A stretch of 48,873 bases of DNA, from positions 1 through 48,873 of the IMG/VR virus record IMGVR_UViG_3300009181_003407; one strand, 5' to 3'. The notes beneath the pieces were generated by a model that worked only from the letters and a program-made list of their open reading frames with translations, ran no database searches and was not told the origin of the DNA. This document shows positions 4,171 through 45,520 of this stretch, piece by piece (the stretch's first letter is position 1; each line of letters starts with the position of its first letter). The translations under genes and the position numbers were made by a program. This DNA comes from a virus.

Positions 4171-4505
4171 AGTATTTTGTTTGATACCAAGAAGTATGTG
4201 ATCATTGATATCAAATACTCCACAAAAAACATATCAAGTGTGTCATGGAATAAACATGATGATAAGCATATCCAAAATCCTATACACCAAGGACAACTCA
4301 ATAGTTTTGTTAAAAAGCCAGGATGCTTTTTATACAACCACTTAGGGTATTCAATGGTAAAATCATGTGTTCTGTCTTCTTCAAAGTTGGGTATTTTGAA
4401 TAACTTTCTCAACCCGAATAGTTGCGCATAAGAAAGTACGGTTTCAGTATGAAACCAAATCAACAAACACACAACTGTGAAGCATATTGAATTTACGTCG
4501 TTCAT
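4167..4505 (-). CDS. Small membrane protein, DUF1360-like
   Basis: This 112-aa protein starts with a hydrophobic helix (residues about 5-20), has a charged middle, then the segment LLSCPWCIGFWICL and further hydrophobic helices near 75-110. The CPWCxGFW motif between membrane segments is characteristic of the DUF1360 family of small integral membrane proteins found in phages and bacteria. It overlaps its neighbours on both sides by 4 nt, so it is co-translated within the glycan operon. The role is unknown; a membrane location is likely. A place in glycan assembly is suggested only by position. Confidence 0.62.
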   Translation of the reverse strand: MNDVNSICFTVVCLLIWFHTETVLSYAQLFGLRKLFKIPNFEEDRTHDFTIEYPKWLYKKHPGFLTKLLSCPWCIGFWICLSSCLFHDTLDMFFVEYLISMITYFLVSNKIL

Positions 4506-7285: not shown

Positions 7286-7286
7286 A

Positions 7287-8225: not shown

Positions 8226-8241
8226 TTTGTTTTATTCTCAA

Positions 8242-11640: not shown

Positions 11641-11647
11641 ATAGTTT

Positions 11648-13332: not shown

Positions 13333-13357
13333 CGAATTGTTATGATGTCTGAAAATT

Positions 13358-14167: not shown

Positions 14168-14172
14168 AGTTG

Positions 14173-14847
14173 TTAGTCACACTCGTTTACGTTACATTTA
14201 ATATGATCACGAATGGCATTATGAAAATATGGTTTATCATGTTTAATGATTAAATTAGACAAAATACTTTGATCATATCTATGATCCACGTATTTTGGTA
14301 AGTTGGGTAGACCGCAAGTGTTTGGATCATCTGTTATGATTCTTTCATCTTTGCAATATTCAAACCATTCAGATAAAAAATCGATGGAGTGGTTATTGTT
14401 TTTTATTGCCAACACTCCCGCTTCACATTGCTTTGCATTCCAATATTTATCGTAATCACATCCCATGTAATGAAACGTATCACGTTTTGTATACATGTGA
14501 TTCGGATATCCTCCTAGTAGAAAGCACATAGATTTTGATGTAAGTTCCTTCTCTATGATTTCTAATGCATCTTTTGTAAAGGTGTCTGCACTGTCTATAT
14601 AAAACAAAATTTCATTGTTGCCTATTTTTTTCAGTGTTTCAAGTATGATGTACGGTTTCCAAAGACAAAATCCACTGCCTCTTTCTCTATCAAGGATTTT
14701 TGAATGTGTTCGATAAAAGTCGGTGGATTTTATTTCGTCGAATGTATACGGAAAACAGTTCAATCCCAATGTTTTTGCAAACTCATTGAGTTTTTGTTGT
14801 TGTGATGTATATTTGTAATTTGAAAATGTAACAAAATTAATGCTCAT
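14173..14847 (-). CDS. GT-A glycosyltransferase-like protein (capsule/GT8-GT32-like)
   Basis: The 224-aa protein has RGSGFCLWKPYIILETLKKI starting near 56, followed by ILFYIDSADTF with a DxxD at 85-88. Towards the end come CGLPNLPKYVDHRYDQSILSNL, where an HRxDQ motif marks the active-site loop. This combination recurs in capsule-locus glycosyltransferases with a GT-A fold. It overlaps the galactosyltransferase-like gene upstream by 4 nt and is followed by a GT2 gene after 5 nt. Metal-dependent sugar transfer in the cytoplasm is likely; specificity unknown. Confidence 0.65.
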   Translation of the reverse strand: MSINFVTFSNYKYTSQQQKLNEFAKTLGLNCFPYTFDEIKSTDFYRTHSKILDRERGSGFCLWKPYIILETLKKIGNNEILFYIDSADTFTKDALEIIEKELTSKSMCFLLGGYPNHMYTKRDTFHYMGCDYDKYWNAKQCEAGVLAIKNNNHSIDFLSEWFEYCKDERIITDDPNTCGLPNLPKYVDHRYDQSILSNLIIKHDKPYFHNAIRDHIKCNVNECD

Positions 14848-15848
14848 AGAGTAATATATTTCGAGATGTATTCCACTGAATTATAGTAATCGATCAACTG
14901 AGTTTTGGTAAACGATTGTAACGTGCCTAACAACTTATTGTTTTGAGAAAAGTATAGATTTTCTTTCGATGAATTATTTCCACGTTCATGTTCTAGATGA
15001 TAGACGATACGATTATCCAAATGTTCTACTTTACGATCTAGTTTAACAAATCTGTGATACCGTTCTAAATCCTCTGGACCATATGATATGAAGTATTCAT
15101 TTTCCCAACCATATTTCTTGTATGCATCGGTGTTAAAAAACTGACAATGGCCATACCAACTCAAAAATGATTTTTCCAGAAAGTCTGAATTTTCTAAGTT
15201 TTCAAGAGATTTTCCATTTTTTACACTATTACGGCCGTTATGGTTAACTCTGTGTTGACAATTACCATAACAATATGGATACACCAACTCTAGTTCATCT
15301 TTAATAATACGATTTCTAGCCGTTACATACGAATCAATTGGCAAAAGAACATCGATGTCATAGTTAACGGTTACAGTCGTTTTGACCATATTCAACATAT
15401 GGTTCAAGTATCTAGTTCTGTGGAATACTGGACCGTCGTTTTTTTCAAAAATGTAGGTGGCTTTACCATTTAACTTATCTCCAATCTGTGATTTTGAATC
15501 TGCTTCATAAATAATGATGTTGGTATCTAAGTTCTGAGTCAAATACTCAAACGTAGTGTAGAAGTTTTCCAATCGGTCGTTGCTATCAATTTTGATTGGA
15601 ATGATAAATGTTACATCTTTTAGATTTACTTTTCCACCGGTGGTAGAGTGTATCGTCGAAACAGATATTTCTCCGACGCTAGGTGTAGGTAAAACAGATA
15701 TTTCTTTCACGTCAAGTGTATTTTCTTGAAGTTTTTTAAGAAGAGCTGGATCGGCGTTTCGTCTCCACTGTTTTTCTGATTGAGATTCCATATTTTTTGA
15801 TAATATTTTTATATCACTATAAAGTTTGGTTATGTTGTACGATTTCAT
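14844..15848 (-). CDS. Galactosyltransferase-like GT-A enzyme (GT7 C-terminal type)
   Basis: I start it at the ATG at 15848, whose ATGA overlaps the upstream stop by 4 nt; an ATG four codons earlier (15860) is also in frame. The 334-aa protein has about 77 N-terminal residues of unknown role, then DVTFIIPIKID, a DxD in NYDIDVLLP (D164, D166), and GWENEYFISYGPEDLERYHR from 247. The last motif is the GWGxEDxD-like acceptor/catalytic segment of GT7-C/chondroitin-synthase-type galactosyl- and N-acetylgalactosaminyltransferases. Transfer of Gal or a related sugar is plausible. The N-terminal extension may be a partner-binding region. Confidence 0.72.
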   Translation of the reverse strand: MKSYNITKLYSDIKILSKNMESQSEKQWRRNADPALLKKLQENTLDVKEISVLPTPSVGEISVSTIHSTTGGKVNLKDVTFIIPIKIDSNDRLENFYTTFEYLTQNLDTNIIIYEADSKSQIGDKLNGKATYIFEKNDGPVFHRTRYLNHMLNMVKTTVTVNYDIDVLLPIDSYVTARNRIIKDELELVYPYCYGNCQHRVNHNGRNSVKNGKSLENLENSDFLEKSFLSWYGHCQFFNTDAYKKYGWENEYFISYGPEDLERYHRFVKLDRKVEHLDNRIVYHLEHERGNNSSKENLYFSQNNKLLGTLQSFTKTQLIDYYNSVEYISKYITL

Positions 15849-16660
15849 ATAATAATCCAATTGGGTTGATATAAATCTTTGGTATCTAAGGATTTAAGTT
15901 GCTCTCTAAACCAAGTGGATGGCGCTACGATTTTTTTGTTTTTTGAAAGATTCAACCAACTTCCCCACCAACCAAAAGAACTGTTTGATAGAATGTGATG
16001 ATCACACAACGTCATTATACATAGATCTACATATTGGTTTTGAGTCTCTGATATGAAGAAATTTTTACTGCCAGAGAACGTTGTTTTTGCCCAAGGAATG
16101 TCATCAGTCAAAACAACAAAATTGTACGATTTATCACTGAAGTGAGATGACAATGCGTTTCCATAATACTGATTTGAACATACTCCGTGCCATGTGTATT
16201 GTAGATAATCTCCACGTCTAACGTGTACTGACACCACCTCATTGTCTTTTTTGGAAGATAAAAAGTTTGACGATTCATCTACAATATCTTGTTTGAATTT
16301 GAATTCAGATCGTATTTGATCTTCGATGTGATCAAAATACTTGTTGGTTTGAAAATACCCACGAATCTTTACATCATCGCCGGTGTGAAAGAACTTTTCT
16401 TGAAAATGATACTCATCTGCCGCTTCATATATGGTTTTGGAGGGTGACGTTGAGTGTTTCGCTGAAAGATCAAAACACTTATCAATAGTAAGCTTTTGAG
16501 AGTATTGTTCTATTGCATTTTCTCTCCAAGATAGATTATCTCCGAGATTGTAATCAATTCCATATTCCAACCCTTGTTTTGTTGCAATGCCCAACAATGC
16601 TGCATATTGAAACATTTGGTTTCCCAATCTACCGTGTGGTCCTATATCACATGTAATCAT
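15845..16660 (-). CDS. Alpha-1,2-fucosyltransferase-like (GT11)
   Basis: The 271-aa protein carries all three visible GT11 signatures: GRLGNQMFQYA at 10-20, HVRRGDY at 146-152 (GDP-fucose binding HxRRxD motif) and SNSSFGWWGSWL at 225-236. Length fits bacterial GT11 enzymes (about 270-300 aa). It would transfer L-fucose from GDP-fucose to a galactose in alpha-1,2 linkage on a cytoplasmic glycan precursor. No GDP-fucose synthesis genes are visible here, so GDP-fucose would come from the host or from elsewhere in the genome. It overlaps both neighbours by 4 nt. Confidence 0.9.
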   Translation of the reverse strand: MITCDIGPHGRLGNQMFQYAALLGIATKQGLEYGIDYNLGDNLSWRENAIEQYSQKLTIDKCFDLSAKHSTSPSKTIYEAADEYHFQEKFFHTGDDVKIRGYFQTNKYFDHIEDQIRSEFKFKQDIVDESSNFLSSKKDNEVVSVHVRRGDYLQYTWHGVCSNQYYGNALSSHFSDKSYNFVVLTDDIPWAKTTFSGSKNFFISETQNQYVDLCIMTLCDHHILSNSSFGWWGSWLNLSKNKKIVAPSTWFREQLKSLDTKDLYQPNWIII

Positions 16661-17313
16661 TTTTTCCTAATGTTGTCGTCAACGTTAAAATCTTTTGTGT
16701 ATCGTTGGTTATCACTACGTTGTTTCTCTATAGTTTTTTCGTGATATAACGATAGTTCTTCTTGTGCAGGTAACTTTGCAAAACTCTTCATTCCAATAAT
16801 GGTTTCGTGCAATTTTCTCTCCCATTTGATATGGGATAGATTTTTGTAAATGCGAGACTGATAATCAGGCCAGTTTACATGATTACGTTCATTGACTCTC
16901 CATCCCCATGTTTTAATATCCAGTGGAGTTATTCCAACAAAGTTATTTGCCCTGGAAACCCAAAACATCTCGGTTGCAGAGTTTGATTCTAGAATGGATT
17001 TTAGATTATCAAGTAGAACCTCGTTGGGAAGTTCATCTGCGTCAATTTGAAAGATGTATTTTCCTTTACAATAAGAGTTTCCGTAGTTTTTATGTTCTCC
17101 GTAGTTTTTGTCGAGATGATGAGCAACCAATTTAACACCAACAACTGATTGATATTCATGTAATACGTCCGCTGTATCTTTGTCATCAGAGTAATCATCC
17201 AATATCACAATCTCATTACCATCGTTGTATTTTGTAAGAAGATTCAACAAACGACGGAGTTGTTTTCCCTCGTTATGACATGTTACTAAAAATGATATGA
17301 ACGGATCACTCAT
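16657..17313 (-). CDS. Family 2 glycosyltransferase (WaaE/KdtX-like)
   Basis: The 218-aa GT-A protein shows ISFLVTCHNEGKQL at the N-terminus, EIVILDDYSDDKD near 34-46, KYIFQIDADELP with the DxD D91-A-D93, and a W-rich acceptor region (TWGWRVNERNHVNWPDYQSRIY). The architecture is like LPS-core GT2 enzymes of the WaaE/KdtX kind, though shorter. It probably adds one hexose to an LPS-like or other acceptor. It overlaps the GT11 gene and the upstream GT4 gene by 4 nt each. Confidence 0.8.
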   Translation of the reverse strand: MSDPFISFLVTCHNEGKQLRRLLNLLTKYNDGNEIVILDDYSDDKDTADVLHEYQSVVGVKLVAHHLDKNYGEHKNYGNSYCKGKYIFQIDADELPNEVLLDNLKSILESNSATEMFWVSRANNFVGITPLDIKTWGWRVNERNHVNWPDYQSRIYKNLSHIKWERKLHETIIGMKSFAKLPAQEELSLYHEKTIEKQRSDNQRYTKDFNVDDNIRKK

Positions 17314-18620
17314 ACAGATAAACTTGGAACATTTGATTTCTTTAGTTGTGGAATAACAATAGGAGATTCAACGGCAAACTCAGGAACATACGTGTCGAGA
17401 ATTCCGTGGAGAACTTTGTCCATTGATTCCAAAGAAAAGTCTTTTGAGTTCTTTTCAGCAAGTTCAATTGACTTGTCTTTTGACTTCTGAGTCATACCAA
17501 AAAACGCTCGTTTTAGTTTATCTTCTGCGAGTCCGTTTGATACTACGAACCAAGCAGAGTCTTTGATCAACCATTGGTTTACTGATGCCGGATTTAGTTG
17601 TTCAAGTTTACCTTGAAAAAGGTTATCTGGAACTGACGACAAAAAGTCCAACTGACCACTCCAGTTTGGTGCAAGAACGGGTTTTCCACTCAAAGATGCA
17701 AGTAGTAGTGGGTGACCAAATCCTTCACCGTGCGTGAACGATATGTGACACTTGACTTTTTCATGGTTATAGAGTGCGTTCATTTCTACATCATTCAATT
17801 CACCGTGAACCAAATATACCTTTGGCAAATCTCCTTGTACCATTGTTTCTACAACTTTGATTCGTTTGAGAGTTTCGCTGAGATCTATTTTTGAGAAATT
17901 TGTCCCACTCGTCTTTAAAATCAAACACGGTTTTTGATCGCGATCCTTAAATGTTTCTAGAAATGTCTTGATTAGGTTTCCAATGTCTTTTCTATCGTGA
18001 AACGCACCCGCACTTGTCCACTGACCAACAAACAAGAACCCAAACGTCTCAGGAATGGTTGACATAATCTTTTCGATTGACTCAACCTTCTCGTCTGTAC
18101 GTTTATATACGTTGGTATTAGCACCCCAGAAACATACTTCCATTGGTTTTTCTGAACGTAGTGGTTCTTTTCTTCCGCTACCGTCTTTGTATTCTCGGGT
18201 ATAATCCGCCTCAGCAAACACCTTTTTTGAATGTTTTGAGGTGACGATATTCATGTTCATACGGTTCAATCCTTCAATCCACTCACCCGCTGCAGCTGTG
18301 GTTTCAATTCCTGCCGTCATACCAATATTGTACTTACCGATTGGATTGAATTCGTTTGGAATGGAGATTTGAATAAACACATCTGGTTGTCTATTAAGTG
18401 GTTCTCGAAGTGTCTTTTCAAACAACACCTTGTTCATTGGATCTGATGGATCCAATTCTTCATTGGTACGCTTGATTACGTTTCCGCCCCACTTTGTTGC
18501 GGCGATTCGCACATCAAACTTGTCATATCGAATAACGCTTTTGACAACTTCTTTTGACCAATCTCCGTATCCACTACGACTAAAGACTGGAGCTTGTATA
18601 ACACACAATGGTTTGCTCAT
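17310..18620 (-). CDS. GT4-type GT-B glycosyltransferase
   Basis: Starting at the ATG at 18620 (two bases after the dUTPase stop) gives 436 aa; an earlier in-frame start would run into dut. The N-terminal domain contains APVFSRSGYGDWS, the glycine loop of GT4 enzymes, and IGMTAGIETTAAAGEW. The C-terminal domain has FLFVGQWTSAGAFHDRKDI, then CHISFTHGEGFGHPLLLASLSGKPVLAPNWSGQLDF, the EGFGxPxxEAxxxGxPV-type donor site with E followed by GFG. About 35 C-terminal residues rich in Pro/Val/Ser follow the fold. It overlaps the GT2 gene by 4 nt. Donor and acceptor unknown. Confidence 0.83.
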   Translation of the reverse strand: MSKPLCVIQAPVFSRSGYGDWSKEVVKSVIRYDKFDVRIAATKWGGNVIKRTNEELDPSDPMNKVLFEKTLREPLNRQPDVFIQISIPNEFNPIGKYNIGMTAGIETTAAAGEWIEGLNRMNMNIVTSKHSKKVFAEADYTREYKDGSGRKEPLRSEKPMEVCFWGANTNVYKRTDEKVESIEKIMSTIPETFGFLFVGQWTSAGAFHDRKDIGNLIKTFLETFKDRDQKPCLILKTSGTNFSKIDLSETLKRIKVVETMVQGDLPKVYLVHGELNDVEMNALYNHEKVKCHISFTHGEGFGHPLLLASLSGKPVLAPNWSGQLDFLSSVPDNLFQGKLEQLNPASVNQWLIKDSAWFVVSNGLAEDKLKRAFFGMTQKSKDKSIELAEKNSKDFSLESMDKVLHGILDTYVPEFAVESPIVIPQLKKSNVPSLSV

Positions 18621-18621
18621 A

Positions 18622-19212
18622 TTATTTGTTGAAAAGTTTATTGTCTCTATCACGAATTGCTTCTGAATATTTTTGACCTACCTGAAATTCTGTTTCTTTT
18701 TGTTTTATTAGATCTTCGATAGTTTTACGTGAAGGATTGGAATTGTTTGATGGAACAGCGTTATCAACAACCTTTTTGTTGTCGCTGCTTCCAAATCCAT
18801 TCGTACCACGTTGTGTATCAGTCAAATCATCAACTACACTGAATCCGTTGACGACTGTTGCACACGATTCAAATATGATTTGTGCGACAGCTGTTTCCTT
18901 GCCATCTTTAATTATAGGAAGTAAGATTGGAGTATCACTTAGGTTGATAAGTGCTACCAGAATCTCTCCACGATAATCACTGTCAATGACACCGGCTAGT
19001 ACGTCTATTCCATGTTTTACAGCAAGTCCACTACGTGGAGCAACTCTACCATAGAATCCCTCAGGAATTGCAATTGCAACATCTGTTTTGAATGATTTAC
19101 GTTCGCCGGGCTTTAATTCGTATGACTCCGTGGTGTACAAGTCATAACCAGCAGCACCAGAACTGCCTTTGGTTGGAATCACTGCTTTTTCAGATAATTT
19201 TTTGATGTTCAT
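18622..19212 (-). CDS. dut: dUTPase with C-terminal extension
   Basis: The trimeric dUTPase motifs are all present: AAGYDLY (20-26), APRSGLA (58-64), DVLAGVIDSDYRGE (70-83), AVAQIIFE (108-115) and RGTNGFGS (135-142). It hydrolyses dUTP to dUMP and pyrophosphate, keeping uracil out of phage DNA and supplying dTTP synthesis. The protein is 196 aa, about 50 longer than usual, because residues 143-196 form a polar tail after motif V: a Ser/Asn linker, then a charged helix. It is embedded between glycosyltransferase genes, overlapping the upstream one by 4 nt. Confidence 0.93.
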   Translation of the reverse strand: MNIKKLSEKAVIPTKGSSGAAGYDLYTTESYELKPGERKSFKTDVAIAIPEGFYGRVAPRSGLAVKHGIDVLAGVIDSDYRGEILVALINLSDTPILLPIIKDGKETAVAQIIFESCATVVNGFSVVDDLTDTQRGTNGFGSSDNKKVVDNAVPSNNSNPSRKTIEDLIKQKETEFQVGQKYSEAIRDRDNKLFNK

Positions 19213-20192
19213 ACTAATTTCTTATTTACCTCTTCTTGAATTTTGTTGATATCCACAGGTCGGAATGGAACTCCAATTTGATTTTCTGGCTGTACTTGGT
19301 TTACATACTCATCGGTATTATGAATACTGAACGAAGATACAGGAACAAAGTTTTCAATGGTAAAGTCCATTGCTTTAATCAATTGATCACACATGTTACG
19401 TGCATTCAATCCACCTTCATTTAGTGCCCATCTGCGTCCTTCAACACCACACTTCTCACGGGTTTCAGAACCCGCAAGATACCAATACATGAGTGCATCA
19501 GCAACATCTGATGTGTATAACATATCGTCAAAAATATATGGAGTTTCAACACTCCCATGCATGTCGATTGCCGAAGGCCAAACGGGTTTTGCCCACGCAC
19601 CATGCGTTTTGTATCTACCACAGTTGTTAGAACCAAACTCACGGGTAAATTCTACGGGGTTTCCTTCGTCATCTAGTTGACCGATTTGATCTTGAAGACC
19701 ACCCGTAACATTTGTAATAACAGGAGTGCCAGCCATGATAGATTCAGCAATACTAAGTCCAAATCCTTCATTACTAGAAATACTAATGGTAACATCTGCC
19801 AAATTGTACATGAGATTCATTTCATCTGGAGTGATTTTCTTTTGGGAAAAATACACCGCATAATCTCTACAAATTGCTTCTTTAACTGCAAGCAAATCTG
19901 TACCATGACCGTGTTGACCAATGATTTCTGTATGCAAAATCAAACAGCATCGTTCTGATTTTGCTTTTGGTAGACTATCACAGAATAGTTTAAATGCGAG
20001 AATCAGGTTTGATACTTGTTTTCGTTTTGTGTTTCTACTATTGAAAAACACAGCATAATCATATGTCTTTCCATTATAGAAACGTTTCTTACCCTCACTC
20101 AACGCTTTGTCATTCTCTGGTAGAGGTTTAAATACGTTTTCGTTGATTCCGTGTGGTACGTAATGTAATAGTGTTTTTCCTTTTACTGACAT
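19209..20192 (-). CDS. GT4 glycosyltransferase, C-terminal (donor) domain as separate ORF
   Basis: This 327-aa ORF begins in what would be the linker of a GT4 enzyme: LLHYVPHGINENVFKPL at 8-24 is the usual interdomain 'PxGxDxxxF' motif. It contains the donor domain with FNSRNTKRKQ and SISSNEGFGLSIAESIMAGTPVI. The N-terminal acceptor domain is in the upstream ORF (20183-20725). The two overlap by 10 nt in different frames. The downstream ORF has its own AGAAGGA-type ribosome site (20198-20204) 5 nt before ATG, so it can be translated by itself. It is either a genuinely split enzyme or the result of a single frameshift. The last 40 residues (after the fold) are polar. Confidence 0.8.
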   Translation of the reverse strand: MSVKGKTLLHYVPHGINENVFKPLPENDKALSEGKKRFYNGKTYDYAVFFNSRNTKRKQVSNLILAFKLFCDSLPKAKSERCCLILHTEIIGQHGHGTDLLAVKEAICRDYAVYFSQKKITPDEMNLMYNLADVTISISSNEGFGLSIAESIMAGTPVITNVTGGLQDQIGQLDDEGNPVEFTREFGSNNCGRYKTHGAWAKPVWPSAIDMHGSVETPYIFDDMLYTSDVADALMYWYLAGSETREKCGVEGRRWALNEGGLNARNMCDQLIKAMDFTIENFVPVSSFSIHNTDEYVNQVQPENQIGVPFRPVDINKIQEEVNKKLV

Positions 20193-20725
20193 AGATTTCC
20201 TTCTTTATCGAGATCTCCATTAACGGTTGTACAATTTTCTGGTCCGAGAACCCACTTGTTGATGTTGTAGGTCTGTTTGCTGATACTAAACAATGAGTCA
20301 CAACTTTGATAAAACGGTTTGTTCCACATTGGATATGGAAGATCGTCCCAAATGTTTAAATATGTGATGGGAGTCTTCTTTCTGATTTCCCGTTCGAGAG
20401 CATACAACCACTTCCAATATCTTGGATCAGTGAAATGCATGATTGCATCAGGCTTTTCTTTGGCCATGACTGAAAACAACAAATCTTCGCTGCCATAACC
20501 CTTTGTTGCATAAACCATCACGTATGCGTCTTGCACACCTGTTTGTTTTCTGGCTTGATCGTTGAGATCAAATACTTTTCCTGCATCTGGATGTTCTCTC
20601 GCACCACCAATTTGAACCCAATCATAATGATGCACCGACCCCATTACAAGTTCCCTTGACATGGTTGATACACCGCTGTGCATTCTAAGATCGTCGCTTA
20701 ATAGTAGTATCTTTTTCTTTGCCAT
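20183..20725 (-). CDS. GT4 glycosyltransferase, N-terminal (acceptor) domain as separate ORF
   Basis: The 180-aa protein looks like the N-terminal Rossmann half of a GT4 enzyme: KKILLLSDDLRMHSGVSTM (glycine/serine loop), IMHFTDPRYWKWL, ITYLNIWDDLPYP and a final DSLFSISKQTYNINKWVLG strand-helix. It ends after residue 180 with the phrase GDLDKEGNLCQ, and the donor domain continues in a different frame from an ATG that overlaps this stop. Alone it would lack the nucleotide-sugar site, so activity should require the partner chain. It follows the RHH-like gene closely (2 nt). Confidence 0.78.
   Translation of the reverse strand: MAKKKILLLSDDLRMHSGVSTMSRELVMGSVHHYDWVQIGGAREHPDAGKVFDLNDQARKQTGVQDAYVMVYATKGYGSEDLLFSVMAKEKPDAIMHFTDPRYWKWLYALEREIRKKTPITYLNIWDDLPYPMWNKPFYQSCDSLFSISKQTYNINKWVLGPENCTTVNGDLDKEGNLCQ
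20196..20204 (-). promoter_or_regulatory. Strong ribosome binding site for the second half of the split GT4
   Basis: On the minus strand, AGAAGGA (20198-20204) lies 5 nt upstream of the ATG at 20192 and within the coding end of the first-half ORF. It is one of the better Shine-Dalgarno matches in the window. The arrangement (RBS inside the upstream gene, 10-nt overlap) is typical of translational coupling and argues that the second half is a real start, not only a frameshift product. Confidence 0.65.
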
Positions 20726-32497: not shown

Positions 32498-35400
32498 ATG
32501 ATGACTAATAATTTCGATATCCTTCCAACAATCGTTAGAAAAATATACTCACCGGCAGTTGTAAATGATCGTCTAATATACAAACACGACAAGATTGTGT
32601 TTGTCGGTATTGCCGGAACGTGCGGATATTCTATTCTAGCAAAAGACACGGTTTTGTCTCTTAGAAAAGAAGGATATTTGGTAAACTATCTGCCATACGG
32701 AAATGAAAACGTCGAACATGACAAAGGGTTTTATGATGAAATCTATACAGATCAATTTGACGAGGCTGAATCGACGTGTTATATCATCAATACCCCTCCT
32801 TTTATATTTGAAACACTCTATCGAGATTTTTTATCTGAAAGAGTAAAAAACAAAGCCGTATATGGATTTCCACTATGGGAGTCTGAATATGTGCATCCCG
32901 ATTATATTCGTCAAATAAACCAGTATTGTACTGGACTTATTGTTTGTTCGGAATGGAATAAGACAACATTTCTTGAATGTGGGGTGACAAGAAACATTGA
33001 ATTGAAAAAATATAACCCTAGATTGCCAGAAAAACTGACGGATAGATTGGAGTCTATAAAGTTTGTAGAAAGTAATTCGGTGTTATATGGTAAAACTAAT
33101 TGTTTACAGTCATCGTTAAATTACTATAGCATCGGGCAATGGACGCAGCGAAAAGGAGTGACAGAAACGATAGAATATTTTTGTGAATCATTTCAGTCGA
33201 ACGAAAACGTTGCACTGATACTAAAAACGAATTACCTTCATCATAACGAATTCGACATTAACATCTGTCATGATAGAATCAAATCTATTGTAGCCAAATA
33301 TCCAAACTGTCCACCGATATATTTGATAACCAAACAGTTATCAAATACAGAATTGTACAACATACACTCTGCTGGCGATGTATATCTTTCAATGACGAAA
33401 TCTGAAGGAATAGGATTGGGCGCATTAGCTGCTGCAAACTATAAAAAACAAGTAATCATTACAGGATATGGTGCACAAAAAGAGTATCTGAATCAATTTG
33501 AAGGCATTCATTTTGTGGAGTATAAACTGCATCCTGCTGAAGACGATTTGAACTTCGGTATGGATCTTGACAATCAGTTTTGGTCACATCCAGATAAAGA
33601 TAGTGCTATCACAGCCATAAAAACTACGTACAAAAGTCGTGTGGAGAAAAAAGAAGTCGCAAGCATGAACAACATTGTATATTTGGGTAGAGGTTGGTAC
33701 GCAAAAGAAAAAAATGAAAACGGATTGGTCTACAGGTGGACTAGCATTGCGTCTGAAATTTTTGTTGTCAACAAAGATGGATGGGAAACACTCAATATTA
33801 CGACCACAAATCAATACACAGATAAAGTGATTGTATTTTTGGTAAAACGAAAGAACAAACATGAATATGAATCTGTCCACGAACAACAATACAGCATAGG
33901 ACAATTGGTTAATGTTACCATTTCTCTTGATAACGTCGAAGAAATAAAGATTGTAAGTGATTGCTTTTGTCCATCCGAAGTAAATCTAAGCGAAGACAAG
34001 AGAAAATTGTCATTGTACATCAACGAGTTTGTATTTGGTCGTAATGAAAATTCGTATGTTCACCAATTGAGGGATATTAAAGATGTGCCGCTTGACATCA
34101 TAAGCCCTAAAATCTTGGTGGACAAAACGGATGCCTACTTTCAAATGCATAACACAACGCCATTTGAAGCCACGGTTAATAATGTAACGGTGTTGATCAC
34201 ATGTCACGGTGACAGAGTAAACTTCGGAAAGCGAGCATACTCGTCGGTGTTGGAATCTGGTATAAAAAACGTGGTACTTGTAGTATCAGGAAACAATCAA
34301 GAATACATTGATTGGGCAGTCAGTCTAAATGATGAACAGAAAAAGTCTGTGGTCATTATCAACGAAGACAAATCTAATAATCTATGTTGGATTGAGGGAT
34401 TACGTGTTATTAACACCAAGTGGTCTATCATACTACACGACGATGATATTCTAACCAAAAACATCACCGATGAACTTTCATACTTGAATGAAACACACTC
34501 ATTTGGAATATGGAATGGTGTAGTAGAAATAACACCGTCCGACCAAATTGAAGAAAATAAAACCATAGATTTGTGTGTGCGCAGAGGAACATATTCTACA
34601 AAGGTGGTTCGCGATCTCATTCAGAAATATCCTCTGACTATTTCCCCTATTCACGGTGTATTTCCTACTAAGAAATTGATTGACTGTTTATCAAAATGGG
34701 AAACTGAATTTGGAAACAATACTGAATTCTACAAACGACCTACGTTCGTGGTAGGAAACGATATATTCATATGGTTGTATTTTACCGAAAACAAAAGCGA
34801 TATATGTTTTATAACACCGACCGTATGTTCCAAATGTGTAGCGCATATAGAAAGTGCAACTATTGTTGATTTGAATTCAGAAAAGTCATTCAAACAGATA
34901 TACTCCAAGGTAAAAGACTTCTACATCAAGAAGACTATTACTAACGGAATGATTTTGTATTTGCCTGATCTGAGTAAAAAACATTTGATGTGTTTAGATA
35001 ATTTTAGAGACTACCACATGTCACAATACAATGTGCCTGTAGTAGTATACTCCGACACTGAACTTGATATTCCATCAAAATATAACGTCAAGTTTGTAAA
35101 GATCGATAAAATTCCATATATGAACGCCGGAATTCATGAGAGATCAAACAAGTATTCGTTCTGGTCATTTGTAGATGGACTCAAAATTGCAAGAGATTTG
35201 GGATGGAACTACTTTTTTGGATATGAGTGGGACTGTAAAGTAGGAAGTGATTATTGGTATGATACACTGTGGCAAGAACATCTATCATGGCCATATGATC
35301 CGATTGTAACAGGCACACCTGTAATGAAATGTCCATCACTATGTTCTGGAAACATGATGATGGGAACTACAGATTATCGATACAACTACGCAAAACAGTG

Positions 35401-35740
35401 CAAAGTAGATATGTTAGTCGAAGATATATCGGATTTTGCAATCTATACTAATGGAGCATTGACATTCTATAACACTGATAAAACAATTGGGTATTTTTCA
35501 TCCGAAGTGAACGGTTTGATTACTGACAAATCAAATCATGTAAACCAAACAGGACCGTGGGATTATTGTCTTGGTGTTAGAATCATGAAAGATTTAAAAG
35601 AAAATGCATTCAAACACGTTGGGTGGTTACCATCTTCATATTCAGGATGCAGTGACAACTTCTATAGTCAAGATCAAAGAAACTATATGTTGAAATCCAA
35701 AATGAAGGTGGCAATTCATCAATACAAGTATTCAGACTAA
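32498..35740 (+). CDS. Three-domain glycosyltransferase (GT-B + GT-A + GT-A-like)
   Basis: The 1080-aa protein has at least four parts. Residues about 25-390 are a GT4-type GT-B enzyme (VFVGIAGTCGYS loop; IGQWTQRKG; VYLSMTKSEGIGLGALAAA). Residues about 400-530 are beta-rich with no known motif. Residues about 560-830 are a GT2-type domain (VTVLITCHGDRVNF, WSIILHDDDILT with DDD). Residues about 835-1080 are another GT-A-like domain (YFFGYEWDCKV, GPWDYCLG). One chain could add two or three sugars in sequence. It follows the small replisome-linked genes by 17 nt and precedes more glycan genes. Domain functions are inferred from motifs. Confidence 0.78.
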   Translation: MMTNNFDILPTIVRKIYSPAVVNDRLIYKHDKIVFVGIAGTCGYSILAKDTVLSLRKEGYLVNYLPYGNENVEHDKGFYDEIYTDQFDEAESTCYIINTPPFIFETLYRDFLSERVKNKAVYGFPLWESEYVHPDYIRQINQYCTGLIVCSEWNKTTFLECGVTRNIELKKYNPRLPEKLTDRLESIKFVESNSVLYGKTNCLQSSLNYYSIGQWTQRKGVTETIEYFCESFQSNENVALILKTNYLHHNEFDINICHDRIKSIVAKYPNCPPIYLITKQLSNTELYNIHSAGDVYLSMTKSEGIGLGALAAANYKKQVIITGYGAQKEYLNQFEGIHFVEYKLHPAEDDLNFGMDLDNQFWSHPDKDSAITAIKTTYKSRVEKKEVASMNNIVYLGRGWYAKEKNENGLVYRWTSIASEIFVVNKDGWETLNITTTNQYTDKVIVFLVKRKNKHEYESVHEQQYSIGQLVNVTISLDNVEEIKIVSDCFCPSEVNLSEDKRKLSLYINEFVFGRNENSYVHQLRDIKDVPLDIISPKILVDKTDAYFQMHNTTPFEATVNNVTVLITCHGDRVNFGKRAYSSVLESGIKNVVLVVSGNNQEYIDWAVSLNDEQKKSVVIINEDKSNNLCWIEGLRVINTKWSIILHDDDILTKNITDELSYLNETHSFGIWNGVVEITPSDQIEENKTIDLCVRRGTYSTKVVRDLIQKYPLTISPIHGVFPTKKLIDCLSKWETEFGNNTEFYKRPTFVVGNDIFIWLYFTENKSDICFITPTVCSKCVAHIESATIVDLNSEKSFKQIYSKVKDFYIKKTITNGMILYLPDLSKKHLMCLDNFRDYHMSQYNVPVVVYSDTELDIPSKYNVKFVKIDKIPYMNAGIHERSNKYSFWSFVDGLKIARDLGWNYFFGYEWDCKVGSDYWYDTLWQEHLSWPYDPIVTGTPVMKCPSLCSGNMMMGTTDYRYNYAKQCKVDMLVEDISDFAIYTNGALTFYNTDKTIGYFSSEVNGLITDKSNHVNQTGPWDYCLGVRIMKDLKENAFKHVGWLPSSYSGCSDNFYSQDQRNYMLKSKMKVAIHQYKYSD

Positions 35741-39822: not shown

Positions 39823-39939
39823 ATTAAATAAATACGGTGTATATCTCGTAAAATAAAAGTATTTGGGGTTTTGCCGATATTTAACGTGCGGGTATGAAAA
39901 AAATCATCTATTTCGGTATATATGGGATATTTATAGGCT
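39823..39939. other. Divergent intergenic region with uORF and hairpin
   Basis: These 117 AT-rich bases separate a minus-strand glycosyltransferase from the plus-strand ArdC-like gene. They contain a minus-strand TATAAATA (39928-39935), an 18-codon plus-strand mini-ORF (39894-39950) and the left arm of a hairpin around the ArdC start. Promoters for both directions should lie here; none is certain. Confidence 0.5.
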
Positions 39940-39950
39940 ATGACCTATAA
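39894..39950 (+). other. 18-codon upstream ORF overlapping the ArdC-like start
   Basis: ATG at 39894 opens an 18-residue hydrophobic peptide (MKKIIYFGIYGIFIGYDL) whose TAA at 39948-39950 lies 11 nt inside the next coding sequence, in another frame. Its translation would melt the hairpin that holds the ArdC start. A weak purine stretch (GCGGGT) precedes it. Candidate leader peptide only. Confidence 0.25.
39928..39935 (-). promoter_or_regulatory. TATAAATA on the minus strand, T4-late-like
   Basis: The exact T4 late -10 octamer reads on the minus strand about 105 nt upstream of the start at 39822. It also overlaps the left arm of the hairpin near the ArdC-like start, so it may be incidental. 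Confidence 0.25.
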
Positions 39951-39951
39951 A
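39930..39951 (+). promoter_or_regulatory. Hairpin with the ArdC-like start codon in its loop
   Basis: TTTATAGG (39930-39937) and CCTATAAA (39944-39951) are perfect 8-bp inverted repeats; the 6-nt loop CTATGA holds the ATG at 39940. In mRNA this would sequester the start region, and no clear Shine-Dalgarno precedes it. Translational control is plausible, especially with the overlapping upstream mini-ORF. Confidence 0.4.
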
Positions 39952-41769
39952 GACTTCTTCAAAGAAAATAACATGAGTCAGGTATCTGTTGGAGGAATGG
40001 CATCCATGTCAGGACATACCGGCACATATGCGTCTCCAGATGTTACACAGAATCCCGGTTCGTTTCCTGCCGACAGTTCCAAGGTAAACATCGTTTCACC
40101 TGTGGATCAAGACGTTAAATCCAAGATTGACCCAGAACAATACAAGAAAGATGTTGACGCAGTTAAACAAAAAGTATCTCCAGACGATATTATTCAAGGT
40201 ATGGAGTATGAAATGAAAAAACAGATTTACAAGAACAAGATGTCTGCAAAGGAAACTGTAGTCAAAAACTTGAAAGTAAACCCACGTCATTATCGTGATC
40301 TTGGAATGTTGGGTATGACTCCTGACATGATGAATGAGTCTTATGAACCACTTTTGCTTGAAGAAGAAGATCTAAATGAGAAGTTGAATCTTCGGGCTGA
40401 CCGGGCGAACAATAAAATTGTAGTAATATCTACATTGGAAAATACGAGAGAAGCAGGAAATGAAACGTATCGTAATAAAGATGCGTTAAAAGGAAATGGT
40501 TTTAGATGGGATTCAACCATTACTGCGTGGACTATTGATGCTAATAAATTTGACGTAGCAACATCGGTTATTCGATACATCAATTCGGGATACAAGTGGG
40601 ATGTAAAAAAGAATACATGGATCGAACCATCGGGTGATTCCAAATTAGAAGATTTGATTCAAAAGATAGAAGATCTTCCTGATTTTGTGATAGGCGATGC
40701 TAATATCAGTAAAAATCAACAACTTGCAATTAAGATTGACGGGTTTATTAAACAACTTGCTGATGCTGTACACGGTGCATCTACTAGTGGTCAGGTTGCA
40801 GAATATTTAAGATTTAGTAAAAGATTTAGAAAGTATAGTTTAAACAACTCATTGTTGATTTTCATTCAAAAACCAAATTCAACTCATGTTGCTGGATTCA
40901 ATGCGTGGAAAAAGATGGGAGTAACAGTAAAAAAAGGCGCAACTGCAATTTATATTTACGCTCCCATCACTAAGAAGGAAGATGATGTTAAGTCTGGAGA
41001 TCAAGGACTTGACACTGAAATTACAAAGAGAAATTCAATGTATTTCAGAGCCGTTCCGGTTTTTGATATTAGTGACACAGACGCAGAAGAAAAAGGTATT
41101 AACGCACAGAAGCCAGAATGGCACGATCCAAATACTCCAAGTGAAGTTGCGGATAAAATACTTGAATGTGCATTGGAATTTTGTAAAGACAAAGGTATCA
41201 AGATTACCCACTCCGATGCAAAGGGCGGAGAAATGGGATGGGCAATGGGAGACCACATCAATTTGACAAGCAATATTGCAGGTGTCAATAAACTTGCTAC
41301 ATTAATACATGAAATTGCTCACTCACTATTACACTTTAAAGGTAGTTCTGTATTTTTTGGTGATGAATATACTCTTAAGTTGACAAGACCTCAAGCAGAA
41401 CTTCAAGCTGAATCAATTTCATATACAGTATTGAAGAACTATGATCTTCCAGTGACACATCAAGCAACATATCTTGCTTTATGGCACGCTGATAAAGATG
41501 CGGTCATCAAGAACATGACTATTATCAAGAAGGTAGCTAATTTTATTATCGATGGTATTGATGCTGTTGTTAATGATAAACAAAAAGAACAACCAATGAA
41601 CGAAAATTCAGACCAAAATCAGGCAATCAATCAAATTTTGAAAGATCTTCAAGATCAATCCAAAAACAAAGAGCGAACACAACAAAAATACGGTAACTTT
41701 GAAGCAATTAAAAAGTTGATGGAAGAAAAGTGGGAAGAAAAGAGAAAGAAACGTCATTATGGATTCTAA
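39940..41769 (+). CDS. Candidate head-packaged ArdC-like antirestriction / HEIAH metallopeptidase protein
   Basis: The 609-aa protein is modular. Residues 1-9 (MTYKDFFKE) resemble the T4 capsid-targeting peptide. Residues 80-130 resemble DUF5661 (IIQGMEYEMKK...AKETVVKNLKVNPRHY). Residues 148-230 are an unknown module with NGFRWD...WTID. Residues 260-380 match the ArdC N-terminal ssDNA-binding/antirestriction domain (YSLNNSLLIFIQ, AWKKMGVTVKKGATAIYIYAP, PVFDISDTD). Residues 400-540 are a zinc peptidase with HEIAH at 457-461 and QAELQAESISY at 485-495 as the third-ligand helix. The tail is charged. Co-injection and protection of incoming DNA is inferred. The targeting-like peptide supports the 39940 start over the ATG at 39973. 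Confidence 0.8.
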   Translation: MTYKDFFKENNMSQVSVGGMASMSGHTGTYASPDVTQNPGSFPADSSKVNIVSPVDQDVKSKIDPEQYKKDVDAVKQKVSPDDIIQGMEYEMKKQIYKNKMSAKETVVKNLKVNPRHYRDLGMLGMTPDMMNESYEPLLLEEEDLNEKLNLRADRANNKIVVISTLENTREAGNETYRNKDALKGNGFRWDSTITAWTIDANKFDVATSVIRYINSGYKWDVKKNTWIEPSGDSKLEDLIQKIEDLPDFVIGDANISKNQQLAIKIDGFIKQLADAVHGASTSGQVAEYLRFSKRFRKYSLNNSLLIFIQKPNSTHVAGFNAWKKMGVTVKKGATAIYIYAPITKKEDDVKSGDQGLDTEITKRNSMYFRAVPVFDISDTDAEEKGINAQKPEWHDPNTPSEVADKILECALEFCKDKGIKITHSDAKGGEMGWAMGDHINLTSNIAGVNKLATLIHEIAHSLLHFKGSSVFFGDEYTLKLTRPQAELQAESISYTVLKNYDLPVTHQATYLALWHADKDAVIKNMTIIKKVANFIIDGIDAVVNDKQKEQPMNENSDQNQAINQILKDLQDQSKNKERTQQKYGNFEAIKKLMEEKWEEKRKKRHYGF

Positions 41770-41959
41770 CTTAAAAGGCGATTGGTATATTGTTGGATCC
41801 CAAAAAACAATGCAAGATCCATTGATTGGTCATCCAGCTATGAAAGGTCGTAGATGGCAAATTGATTATGCATATCCTTCAAATGGATATGATAAAATGA
41901 AACAAGCTGAAAAAGAAGCCTCAAAGTACAAAAACGAGAACAATCCTAACACAATATGA
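41759..41959 (+). CDS. Small hypothetical protein (66 aa)
   Basis: The polar 66-aa protein begins MDSNLKGDWYIVGSQ and ends in a lysine/asparagine-rich helix (KMKQAEKEASKYKNENN). It overlaps the ArdC-like gene by 11 nt and the following gene by 4 nt, so it is likely translated. No family recognised. Confidence 0.55.
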   Translation: MDSNLKGDWYIVGSQKTMQDPLIGHPAMKGRRWQIDYAYPSNGYDKMKQAEKEASKYKNENNPNTI

Positions 41960-42627
41960 AGTATACTGACTTTTTCATACATGAAGTAGCTTCGGGTGAA
42001 CCTGTCAAATTGACAGGTGGTGTGGGTGATGCAACTGCGCCATCTCAAGTTGATCCAACTGAATTGGCTATGGGTGTTACCGTTGAAATGGAACACACAA
42101 CCGATCCTGATGTTGCAACCGAAATCGCTTTGGACCATCTAACTGAGGTTCCAAACTATTATTCACAATTGAAAAAGGCAGGACTTGCAAAAGAACTCGA
42201 TGCATGTGGCAATCCGTCTGGCCTCGGAGATCCAAGTCATCCTATTAACGACAAACCACGATTGGGTACAGTTGCAACTGCCACCGCAGGCAATAACATA
42301 GTGAAGTTTGACAAAACACCCAATGGGTCGATTGATGGTAGACGCGATGATCCTCCTATTGTCAACAAAGATACAACCGTTGATATTGAGATTCCAGACG
42401 AAGAGAAACAATCTCTTACTCAACTTTTTAAAGAATCGTTGCTGTCTGAAAAAAACGTTCCTACCAATAAACCACTGTGGTCACGTGCTAAATCAGCAGC
42501 ACGTAGTAAATTCAAAGTGTATCCGAGTGCATATGCAAATGGTTGGGCGGTTCAATGGTATAAGAAACATGGTGGTGGTTGGAGAAAAACCAAGAAAAAA
42601 CATAAGAAAAAACATAAGAAAAAATGA
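41956..42627 (+). CDS. DUF5661-type candidate packaged protein with basic tail
   Basis: The 223-aa protein opens MKYTDFFIHE, matching the T4 internal-protein leader MKTYQEFIAE at M1, K2, F7, I8 and E10 and ending in the (L/I)xE prohead-protease pattern. Residues 32-75 are a DUF5661-like domain (DPTELAMGVTVEMEH...ATEIALDHLTEVPNYY). A GLGDPSHPIN motif at 89-98 recurs in the lysozyme gene. Residues 172-209 form a compact basic module (PLWSRAKSAARSKFKVYPSAYANGW...GGGW), and the protein ends in KKKHKKKHKKK. The basic tail suggests DNA contact in the head. It overlaps both neighbours by 4 nt. A packaging role is inferred. Confidence 0.7.
   Translation: MKYTDFFIHEVASGEPVKLTGGVGDATAPSQVDPTELAMGVTVEMEHTTDPDVATEIALDHLTEVPNYYSQLKKAGLAKELDACGNPSGLGDPSHPINDKPRLGTVATATAGNNIVKFDKTPNGSIDGRRDDPPIVNKDTTVDIEIPDEEKQSLTQLFKESLLSEKNVPTNKPLWSRAKSAARSKFKVYPSAYANGWAVQWYKKHGGGWRKTKKKHKKKHKKK
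42592..42627 (+). repeat. Three 12-nt tandem repeats encoding the Lys/His tail
   Basis: AAGAAAAAACAT occurs twice (42592-42603, 42604-42615), followed by AAGAAAAAATGA (42616-42627), the last merging into the stop and the ATG of the next gene. The array encodes KKKH units and could vary in length by slippage. Confidence 0.7.
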
Positions 42628-43658
42628 TCAAACTAGCTGACATAGCAAAATCAATACTCAAAGAAGGTGGTAAGTTGTTTGGTCCTGATGCCGACAGAGT
42701 TACCACAGATGAAATGTATAGTGTTTTTGATGAGATCAAACATAAGTTGGTAAAGAAGTTTACCCGATTTAATTTGTCAATTAAACTTGCATCACGTGCT
42801 GATCATGGAGATGTGGACATTATCGTGTTGTCAAAACAAGGACAAAAAACCAAAGATACGGTGTTGTCAACTCTACAAAACAACATTGTAAAAGACGAAA
42901 ACAACGTTCTCCGTATCGATTCAAACGGAAACATCTTTTCCATTTTATATATTCCAGATAAGTTGGACAAACATGTTCACGTTGATTTTATCAGTGCGGC
43001 TGATGAAGCTGATTTTGAAACCAAAGAAAACTATTTGGCGTACAATGATTTTTCAGGAATGGTGGGTGTCATGTCACGCAAACTCCATTTCAAATATGGG
43101 ACTGAGGGATTTTTCAAGATCTTCACCGACAACAAGAATCAAAACCATGACATTTTGATTACCAAAAACCTACGTGACGGATTGAAGATATTGGGCTTTC
43201 GTAATGTGGATACCAATTTCTCTAATATTCGCAGCGAAGATGACATCATTGAATTTATCAAAACATCACCGTTGTTTGACGTTCGTCAGTTTACGACCGA
43301 TCTGAATCACGGCGATTTGAAGAAAATGAGAAGCGCACGTAAAAGTGCTCAATATATTCGTGATGAACTAATCAAGAGCAATCAACATCGTACTATTGAA
43401 GATGAGGATCACTTTTTCAAACAATTGAATCCACAGAAATACGAGGAAGTGGAACTTGAAAAAAAGAAAATCAACGCCCCCATCATCAATAACGTAAAGT
43501 ACACGGGAGATTGGATCATAAAGACGTTCAATTTGAAGCCAGGCCCCGTTATAGGACGTATTAAAGACTTTTTGACACAAACATACGGCGATCAACTTGA
43601 AATCGTTTCTGACGAACAGGTGATTGCATCCGTTAAACAATATTTATCTAAAGTATGA
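42624..43658 (+). CDS. Polymerase-beta-fold nucleotidyltransferase-like protein
   Basis: The 344-aa protein has LASRADHGDVDIIVLS near 55-70, where G62, D63 and D65 resemble the acidic motif of pol-beta nucleotidyltransferases, and HVHVDFISA with D121 as a third acidic residue. The C-terminal helices with FNLKPGPVIGRIKDFL near 304-319 resemble the tail of CCA-adding/poly(A)-polymerase-type enzymes. The N-terminus MIKLADIAKSILKE ends in an LxE pattern like a prohead-protease site. Genes on both sides share head-protein-like modules. It may modify host tRNA, RNA or protein with nucleotides after injection; that is inference. It overlaps neighbours by 4 nt. Confidence 0.65.
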   Translation: MIKLADIAKSILKEGGKLFGPDADRVTTDEMYSVFDEIKHKLVKKFTRFNLSIKLASRADHGDVDIIVLSKQGQKTKDTVLSTLQNNIVKDENNVLRIDSNGNIFSILYIPDKLDKHVHVDFISAADEADFETKENYLAYNDFSGMVGVMSRKLHFKYGTEGFFKIFTDNKNQNHDILITKNLRDGLKILGFRNVDTNFSNIRSEDDIIEFIKTSPLFDVRQFTTDLNHGDLKKMRSARKSAQYIRDELIKSNQHRTIEDEDHFFKQLNPQKYEEVELEKKKINAPIINNVKYTGDWIIKTFNLKPGPVIGRIKDFLTQTYGDQLEIVSDEQVIASVKQYLSKV

Positions 43659-45520
43659 CTCAAGTTACAAAAAAACAATGGTCGGACAGTCAATCAACGG
43701 GATTTGGCGATACAGATCATCCAATCAATCATGATACTAAACATGTTCATCCTCTTATAACAACTTCTATGAAAGAAAATGCAGAAATGGCTTTGAGTGA
43801 CCTTACCAAGATCGTCAAATACAGTCAAGAACTTCAATCAATGTTTTCGGTCAACGACAACCTCGAAGATTGGGTAAAGGCAAAGTTGAATTATGCGGGT
43901 GATTATGTTTCAGCCGTGAAAGATTACTTGAAGTTCTATCAAAGTGAGAGGCAATTGGGATCCGATGACAAATCGATCAATGAAAAGTGGTCGATGCATT
44001 ATAAGAAGAGTATCAGTTGTGACAACCCAAAAGGATTTAGTCAAAAAGCACATTGTAGAGCACGTAAATTGAGACAGTCGGGTCATGACACCAAGAGCAA
44101 GCCTGTAAAGGAATTGTACAAAGAGGTAATGAAGGATTTGATTGAAGAAGTCAATAGTAGCATGGCTATGGGTACTTTGAAACAACTCAACAGTGATGCT
44201 CAAGAACTTCAATCAATGTTGAAACCAGAAACTCAATTGGAAGATTGGGTAAAATATAAACTTAACATAGCAGGAGAATATTTGGATGATGTATATCATT
44301 ATTTAAATCAATTTGGCCCTGACGGCAGTGAATTAGAAGAGGGATTCAAAGACATTGCTCTAGCCGCTGCACTTGCTGCAGGCACGTTTTTTCCTGGATC
44401 CAAAGCAGTTGCAGGTGAACCAGTAAACCCCGCTGCCGTTGCCAAATCAAATAGTTCAAAAACAGAATTGGATCAATCATTTATTGATTATATCAAGTCG
44501 GCTGAAAATGCTGGTAAGACTGGTTATGATAAACAAAAGAAATTGTGGTTTTCTCACAAAAGTTTTGAAGGAGGTAGTGATACCATTGGATATGGACACA
44601 AAATTCAAACAGGAGAAGATTTTAGTAAAGGTATAACAGATTCACAAGCAGACGATCTATTGAAAAAGGACTTGGAGAAAGCAAAAGAACAAGTCTATAA
44701 AGAAATTGGAAGTCGTCAGTTAAACAAGAAACAATTGGAAATGTTTGTTGATTTCGTTTTCAATATGGGCACTCTCAAAAAGTTTCCAAAGTTTACACTT
44801 GCTGCGTTGAAAAATGATGAGTCAGGAATTAAATCTCAATACAAGAGATTTGCTGGAGGAAAAGAGTTAAAAGGTCGTAATGCTGCTTTTCTTGGGAGAT
44901 TTTTGTCTGAGACTCTAAACGAACTGGATTATGAAGGTGGAGTTGGAATGCATGAATTTATGATGTTTTACGCTAAAGCATCACAAGATCAATGTGACCA
45001 ATTAGAAGGGTGTATGAAAAATCAAGATATTCAATGTGTAAAAAATCTAATCACCAAAGTCACTAGCATGACAATGGATAAAATTCAAGAAGGATTTTAT
45101 GCGGGATCTAAAAATTACTGGATCAGTCCATCTGGAAAAATGATTGATATTGACAAAGAAAAGTTTCCGTTGAGCGACCATGCAACTTGGGCAGTAGTAA
45201 ATGTATTGGCGGAAGCTGATGCCGTATACGCAAATGCCAAAGGCAAAGATGTTAAATGGGTATATCAAAATTATTCCGGACAAACATCTGTGTATACTAC
45301 GATGGTTGGTTATGGATATGTTCGATGTGTTGTAATGACCACAGGTCGTAGCGTGGCATTAGATTTTGCAGACCACACAGATGAGTGGAGAAAGTATCTT
45401 AGTAAATCTCAAGCATCTGCTGTAATCAAGTACGCAATAAATAAGGAGTATAAAGTAATCGTGGATATGACAAATACTGTTTTGTATGAACCACCAACGG
45501 AACCACCAACTGAGGATTGA
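43655..45520 (+). CDS. Multidomain GH24-type lysozyme protein
   Basis: The 621-aa protein contains a GdxxHPIN motif at 18-25 shared with the DUF5661-type protein, two copies of a ~48-aa repeat (45-95 and 171-218; SQELQSM/AQELQSM, LEDWVKxKLNxAGxY), and a basic Cys module (SCDNPKGFSQKAHCRARKLRQSG, 120-142). It has a hydrophobic stretch 233-250 and a GH24 lysozyme at about 273-415 with E283, EGGSDTIGYGHK at 305-316 and a FNMGTLKKF loop. A C-terminal domain (475-600, KNYWISPSGKMIDI) follows. Its size and modules favour a virion-associated lysozyme over a simple endolysin. It overlaps the previous gene by 4 nt. Confidence 0.78.
   Translation: MTQVTKKQWSDSQSTGFGDTDHPINHDTKHVHPLITTSMKENAEMALSDLTKIVKYSQELQSMFSVNDNLEDWVKAKLNYAGDYVSAVKDYLKFYQSERQLGSDDKSINEKWSMHYKKSISCDNPKGFSQKAHCRARKLRQSGHDTKSKPVKELYKEVMKDLIEEVNSSMAMGTLKQLNSDAQELQSMLKPETQLEDWVKYKLNIAGEYLDDVYHYLNQFGPDGSELEEGFKDIALAAALAAGTFFPGSKAVAGEPVNPAAVAKSNSSKTELDQSFIDYIKSAENAGKTGYDKQKKLWFSHKSFEGGSDTIGYGHKIQTGEDFSKGITDSQADDLLKKDLEKAKEQVYKEIGSRQLNKKQLEMFVDFVFNMGTLKKFPKFTLAALKNDESGIKSQYKRFAGGKELKGRNAAFLGRFLSETLNELDYEGGVGMHEFMMFYAKASQDQCDQLEGCMKNQDIQCVKNLITKVTSMTMDKIQEGFYAGSKNYWISPSGKMIDIDKEKFPLSDHATWAVVNVLAEADAVYANAKGKDVKWVYQNYSGQTSVYTTMVGYGYVRCVVMTTGRSVALDFADHTDEWRKYLSKSQASAVIKYAINKEYKVIVDMTNTVLYEPPTEPPTED

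Follow-up and report, generated by a model that had tools for sequence, protein, structure and literature searches.

The window analysed here is the whole 48,873-nucleotide stretch of IMG/VR record IMGVR_UViG_3300009181_003407, a 48.9-kb viral fragment with a T4-type family B DNA polymerase and clamp loader. Three of its genes, named here by their start positions (39940, 41956 and 42624), begin with short peptides that are likely to be capsid-targeting leaders of the T4 internal-protein kind; from the sequences we infer packaging, cleavage, injection and the roles of the cargos. Among related phages the leaders are conserved, are reused on unrelated cargos and stay constant where a cargo is lost. 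An initial annotation had taken the three peptides for leaders of ejected effectors with cargos new with respect to T4, and comparison with relatives, not experiment, supports that interpretation.

Leaders and cargos in related phages

The relatives compared were G001, G002, G003 and G006, together with G062 and G063, which were reached from the right end of G002. Across the module G001 is about 99% identical to the window, and G002 is 78% identical over 41956 and 42624. Because G062 overlaps G002 and all compared proteins are identical, the genome behind the two contigs would measure about 268 kb or more, which makes this a jumbo phage lineage. The nearest named phage is the Microcystis phage Mel-JY01, with 44% identity in the DNA polymerase.

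The nine N-terminal residues of the 39940 family (MTYKDFFKE) are identical in four lineages, namely the window, G002, G003 and G006. The G002 orthologue has only 186 residues: leader, backbone and basic C-terminus are kept and the entire ArdC/peptidase insert is absent. This insert, missing as a block in G002, is present in G003 and diverged in G006. Its borders are repeated MNES and MNEN motifs (window 40330-41600; clean loss at G002 84404-84964), possibly serving cassette exchange or cleavage.

In the 41956 family, the leader and DUF5661 are retained and G006 carries other basic tail modules; the leaders of the relatives read MNYKDFYPE and MKYKDFFINE. The 42624 family keeps its nucleotidyltransferase core behind a variable N-terminus (MIKLADIAKSILKE, MIKLSEIAREILSGG and, in a distant homologue in G021, MIKLKKLLTEGG). 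Leaders of the form xYKDFF are common to adjacent, unrelated genes in G003 and G006. The protein encoded at G006 87040-87945 has a leader-like segment, IKLTDILKDILKDQ, at its C-terminus; T4 Alt is likewise processed at the C-terminus (PMC9026906).

Leader arrays in G063 and G062

A general leader pattern, h..hh.E (hydrophobic-x-x-hydrophobic-hydrophobic-x-E within residues 2-18), was fixed before counting. The initial annotation had pointed to a search for further proteins with the same type of leader, and in related contigs such leaders were found in runs on unrelated enzymes. In G063, genes of one orientation form a 20-kb run (13-35 kb); 10 of its 25 genes carry the pattern (0.72 expected, p = 8.9e-10), compared with 1 of 107 genes outside the run. 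Five successive genes start MKYIDYYKHLLIE, MKYTDYYNHLVTE, MNYTEYYKHLMNE, MKYTDYYKHLLFE and MKYTDFYTNLLNE, forming a tandem MKYTDYYKHLLxE set of which two members are paralogues. Further leaders come after these five, such as MQYSDFYNYLINE on a T7-type protein kinase and MISLKELLMEG on a poly(A)/CCA-type nucleotidyltransferase that also has an HD domain. The cargos of 13142, 14155 and 19434 matched no Pfam family; read by sequence, those of 13142 and 19434 may be ADP-ribosyltransferase (ART)-like. Two paralogues with leaders adjoin each other at G063 14155-19425; they have 796 and 944 residues and contain a YSWCVSRS...FYFVKD domain. A scan of the first gave no Pfam or PHROG match.

In G062, 6 of the 15 genes of one stretch had the pattern (p = 2.4e-6), and MRYRDFFEE was found on a Zeta-toxin-like kinase. 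Among 1,235 N-termini of these and related phages, a count that includes orthologues and is thus not one of independent sequences, the pattern was enriched about threefold with the first hydrophobic residue at positions 3-7.

Leaders in IMG/VR and in cultured phages

T4 IPI begins with MKTFKEF, and IMG/VR was searched with a DNA pattern for MKTFKEF[hydrophobic]xE. At least 120 IMG/VR stretches have genes that begin with this sequence, and a scrambled peptide of equal degeneracy gave no match. The 84 MKTFKEF proteins of at least 40 residues at the fetched loci fell into 28 cargo clusters with no detectable mutual similarity, including ART-PolyVal (1e-23; behind MKTFKEFIKE in L213), a lytic transglycosylase fold and DUF6321 basic proteins. 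Leader-like starts also occur in cultured phages: proteins of the Prochlorococcus phage P-TIM68, which has an annotated prohead protease, start with MKTYKEFIQDIQE (at 118770) and MKSFTSFFTE (at 141186), and genes of Mel-JY01 at 60276 and 62056 start with MIKLKSLLQE and MIKLMSLVTE. Several matches of a YKDFF scan were judged to be due to chance or uninformative, namely a family of 133-amino-acid M[SN]YKDFFQEPENRK proteins, 14-residue open reading frames, and nitronate monooxygenase-like proteins in L177 and L198.

The window leaders and T4

All three N-termini were present exactly as initially annotated, at the same coordinates. The T4 leaders used for comparison came from NC_000866 (MKTYQEFIAE for IPII and IPIII, MKTFKEFTST for IPI). 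Packaging of T4 IPIII needs no more than its first ten residues, of which 4 and 7 mainly govern targeting and 8 and 10 processing (PMC9026906). In the gapless alignment of MTYKDFFKE to T4, Y3 and F6 correspond to the targeting residues Y4 and F7. This N-terminus ranked first among those of the 56 genes in the window by alignment to the T4 leader, with 0.03 expected from shuffling, and for it the proposed resemblance to T4 internal proteins was borne out. Spacing like that of T4 positions 4 and 7 occurs in all three leaders, as Y3/F6 in 39940 and 41956 and as L4/I7 in 42624. The three N-termini by themselves are weak evidence, and significance is gained only through the relatives.

A late-promoter-like motif upstream of leader genes

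Leader genes are associated with a late-promoter-like motif. In G002, G006, G062 and G063, 18 of 44 leader genes have TATTTAT[AT] no further than 25 nt from their start, compared with 31 of 637 other genes (Fisher 3e-11), a 13-fold enrichment; a control motif showed no association with leader genes. TATTTAT[AT] often lies 3-8 nt before the start codon on the sense strand, in these genomes as in the window. The T4-style TATAAATA was rejected as the late promoter, being nearly absent upstream of genes in the clade, in which the enriched form is TATTTATA. TATTTAT[AT] also precedes the tail tube gene and a large tail gene, which suggests that the leader genes are expressed late. That effector-type enzymes should be expressed late is best understood if they are packaged. 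Were the motif to act as a late promoter, it would leave many late transcripts leaderless.

Protease and capsid cleavage site

Both a protease of the gp21 type and, in the capsid protein, an IxE site occur in related phages. Mel-JY01 has the protease family PF03420, and so do 9 of the 22 tail-tube relatives; of the 32 leader-bearing contigs, many of which are fragments, 12 have a match above cut-off. T4 gp23 is cut after residue 65 (PMC5694885). At the site of this cut, L-T-E in T4, the capsid proteins of Mel-JY01 and its relatives have I-S-E, I-E-E or I-D-E and that of P-TIM68 has L-M-E; since the site is kept, the protease of phages of the Mel-JY01 and P-TIM68 type probably shares the T4 cleavage specificity.

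Proposed mechanism and its implications

We propose that the leader proteins would be synthesised late, during head assembly, and that the leader, through its hydrophobic register (residues about 3/6/7 or 4/7/8), would attach to the prohead core and bring the protein inside. At least some leaders would then be cleaved behind the glutamate by a protease of the gp21 type. The mature ArdC/peptidase, DUF5661 basic protein and Pol X-like nucleotidyltransferase would then enter the cell with the DNA, and such cargos may protect, repair or establish the genome.

To a broader proposal we give even chances: large T4-related environmental phages may hold an open-ended, tag-based arsenal of at least ten late proteins per genome, loaded into the head by exchangeable short leaders and co-injected, and the 39940 ArdC/peptidase, lying between repeated MNE borders, might be freed by cuts on both sides. 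The arsenal would comprise the kinase, the ART-like proteins, CCA/poly(A)-type and Pol X-like nucleotidyltransferases, the ArdC/peptidase and the Zeta-toxin-like kinase.

Should the tag prove to be a general rule beyond the T-even phages, sequence alone would be enough to list the proteins that T4-related phages of fresh water and the sea inject, what is delivered by phages during the first minutes of an infection would become directly testable, and short tags could be tried for loading chosen proteins into phage heads. The list of cargos suggests functions in host takeover and genome protection not shown by T4.

Contrary observations and alternative explanations

Several observations weigh against leaders of the T4 kind. 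By alignment to T4, MKYTDFFIHE of 41956 is unremarkable, with 3.4 expected at its score; this peptide is present and its IHE fits the (L/I)xE cleavage motif, and its likeness to T4 is no better than chance. The motif, initially annotated for the leaders, also holds for 42624 (LKE) and fails for 39940, which ends in FKE. Among orthologues, that of 41956 in G002 has FYPE and has lost the motif, that of 42624 in G003 is without the E (ILSGG), and the homologue of 42624 in G063 has no leader. Searches of the window-clade contigs with PF03420 and PF07068 gave no head gene above cut-off, and scanning onward from the right end of G002 led to G062 and to baseplate genes without arriving at the head region. 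The gp21-like protease that the initial annotation proposed to look for was traced in Mel-JY01 and in leader-bearing contigs and not in the clade of the window itself, because the contigs of this clade appear to be without head genes. Collagen-like repeats occur at the left contig ends of the window clade, adjoining the unrecovered head region, which would lie between the right end of G062 and the left end of G002.

Some leader-like genes also occur beside tail genes, so targeting to the virion in general is possible. The leaders could then be assembly tags, amphipathic helices that bind scaffold, tail or chaperone and bring proteins into the virion without necessarily being cut or injected. 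Leader-like N-termini in the tail region, some of them next to the tail tube gene (G002 11719, G003 28167), fit this, as does the incomplete conservation of the cleavage residues. We nevertheless consider it unlikely, as many leader genes have enzyme or DNA-binding cargos rather than structural domains, and the similar leaders of T4 IPI and IPIII are known to be removed (PMC9026906). It is quite improbable that the proteins are intracellular effectors or late enzymes whose N-termini resemble one another through translation-start or transcription context rather than targeting. The frequent position of TATTTAT[AT] 3-8 nt before the start codon could place the start region under constraint at the DNA level; however, the motif precedes non-leader genes too, 26 of the 44 leader genes are without it, and the constraint is on amino-acid register, the leaders themselves being different (YKDFF, YTDYYKHLL, IKLKNLL, TFKEF).

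A further explanation is coincidence: short hydrophobic N-termini that finish in E would be frequent, and the three of the window would have nothing to do with one another. In the window module the general pattern was found in one of seven genes (p = 0.16, not significant), and significance was therefore no longer argued from the window alone; some pattern matches are plainly chance, such as the nitronate monooxygenase-like protein in L177. This explanation is already disfavoured, and we regard it as very improbable, given the G063 array (p = 9e-10, rounded, for a pattern fixed beforehand), the absence of any match to the scrambled leader against at least 120 to the real one, and a leader that stays constant across cargo loss. 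Capsid-targeting leaders remain our preferred explanation.

Cargo domains and neighbouring genes

Positions are listed in Table 1. The cargos initially annotated, an ArdC/peptidase, DUF5661 with a basic tail and a nucleotidyltransferase, hold by Pfam and PHROG matches. The 39940 insert matched PF08401 (ArdC-N, E = 2e-10) and phrog_7245 (6e-20); its zincin motif, HEIAHSLLHF, is visible in the sequence by eye, and the peptidase Pfam match was under cut-off. For 41956, PF18905 (DUF5661) scored 1.8e-10 and the DUF5872-like basic tail (PF19197) 1.2e-5, slightly under the Pfam cut-off. DUF5872-like basic modules, possibly DNA-binding tails, recur on leader proteins and close to head genes.

The 42624 protein matched phrog_24943, a phage DNA polymerase family, at 3e-12. 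Its AlphaFold model, of low confidence, gave a Foldseek match to Pol beta/lambda (E 3e-6) with a template modelling score of only about 0.3, and its first 16 residues had a predicted local distance difference test score below 50. Sequence searches of the PDB with 39940 and with a 42624 profile gave zero matches. The lysozyme-domain gene downstream has no N-terminal leader; a lysozyme gene likewise stands at the end of the G063 leader run.

Elsewhere in the window, a long run of genes occupies 4502-20725 on the minus strand, several of them homologous to Mel-JY01 genes annotated as glycosyltransferases, and further sugar-related genes lie at 1597-2553 and 32498-35740.

Table 1. Coordinates of the leader module of the window and of related basic modules
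Feature	Position	Strand	Remarks
Late-promoter-like motif TATTTATA	39928..39935	+	4 nt before the start codon of 39940; putative promoter
39940 gene	39940-41769	+	starts MTYKDFFKE
Leader 1, MTYKDFFKE	39940..39966	+	gapless alignment to T4 (K)TYQEFIAE
39940 backbone segment	39967..40341	+	residues 10-134, up to MMNES; conserved, kept in insert-less G002
ArdC-N and zincin-type metallopeptidase cargo insert	40342..41592	+	between MMNES and PMNEN
39940 basic C-terminal segment and stop codon	41593..41769	+	conserved in alignment
41956 gene	41956-42627	+	starts MKYTDFFIHE
Leader 2, MKYTDFFIHE	41956..41985	+	IHE matches (L/I)xE site
41956 cargo: DUF5661, internal LLSE segment, DUF5872-like basic tail	41986..42627	+	PF18905, PF19197
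42624 gene	42624-43658	+	starts MIKLADIAKSILKE; SILKE at residues 10-14
Leader 3, MIKLADIAKSILKE	42624..42665	+	L4/I7 in T4 targeting register; LKE a possible processing site
42624 cargo: Pol X-like nucleotidyltransferase	42666..43658	+	phrog_24943 and model match
Downstream gene: phage lysozyme domain, GFSQKAHC-type basic module	43655..45520	+	PF00959 1.3e-13
VYPSAYANGWAVxWYKK modules	window 42460-42621; L259 851-1684; G017 10182; G021 120089; G024 34612		DUF5872-like

Comparison with known systems

In the open-access literature we found no description of these leaders. The ejected head proteins of the giant phages phiKZ and SPN3US have propeptides, with inferred targeting, that are cut by the prohead protease after x-x-E (PMC5694885). 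Those propeptides are mostly longer than 100 residues, whereas the leaders here have 9-14 and are T4-like.

Polyvalent proteins combine ArdC-N and a metallopeptidase in one protein, as does 39940, and in the passages of Iyer et al. 2017 (PMC5512222) considered here they are proposed to be injected with the DNA; ART-PolyVal, as noted, stands behind a leader in L213. Transfer of the 39940 protein into the host with the phage DNA is predicted. The same passages describe no such leader on ArdC-N proteins, whereas here a T4-type leader offers a candidate delivery route.

The closest likeness is to IPI, IPII, IPIII and Alt of T4 (Straboviridae), which likewise begin with a short leader whose hydrophobic or aromatic residues fall in the 4/7/8/10 register. 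T-even internal proteins have the leader alone in common, and a constant leader on a variable protein is known (PMC3012670, PMC12373910), a principle possibly general in T4-like phages (PMC9026906); the T4 IPI leader MKTFKEF is itself the one found across IMG/VR. The T4 cargos are small restriction inhibitors, whereas those described here include multidomain enzymes of large size (ArdC/peptidase, Pol X-like, T7-type kinase, CCA/poly(A)-type nucleotidyltransferase, ART), and the leaders, for which packaging is predicted, are clade-specific (YKDFF, YTDYYKHLL, IKLKNLL) and stand in long arrays. The principle itself is known in T-even phages; the novelty lies in leaders specific to the clade, in their arrangement in arrays, in cargos that are large enzymes and in the scale on which they occur among environmental phages.

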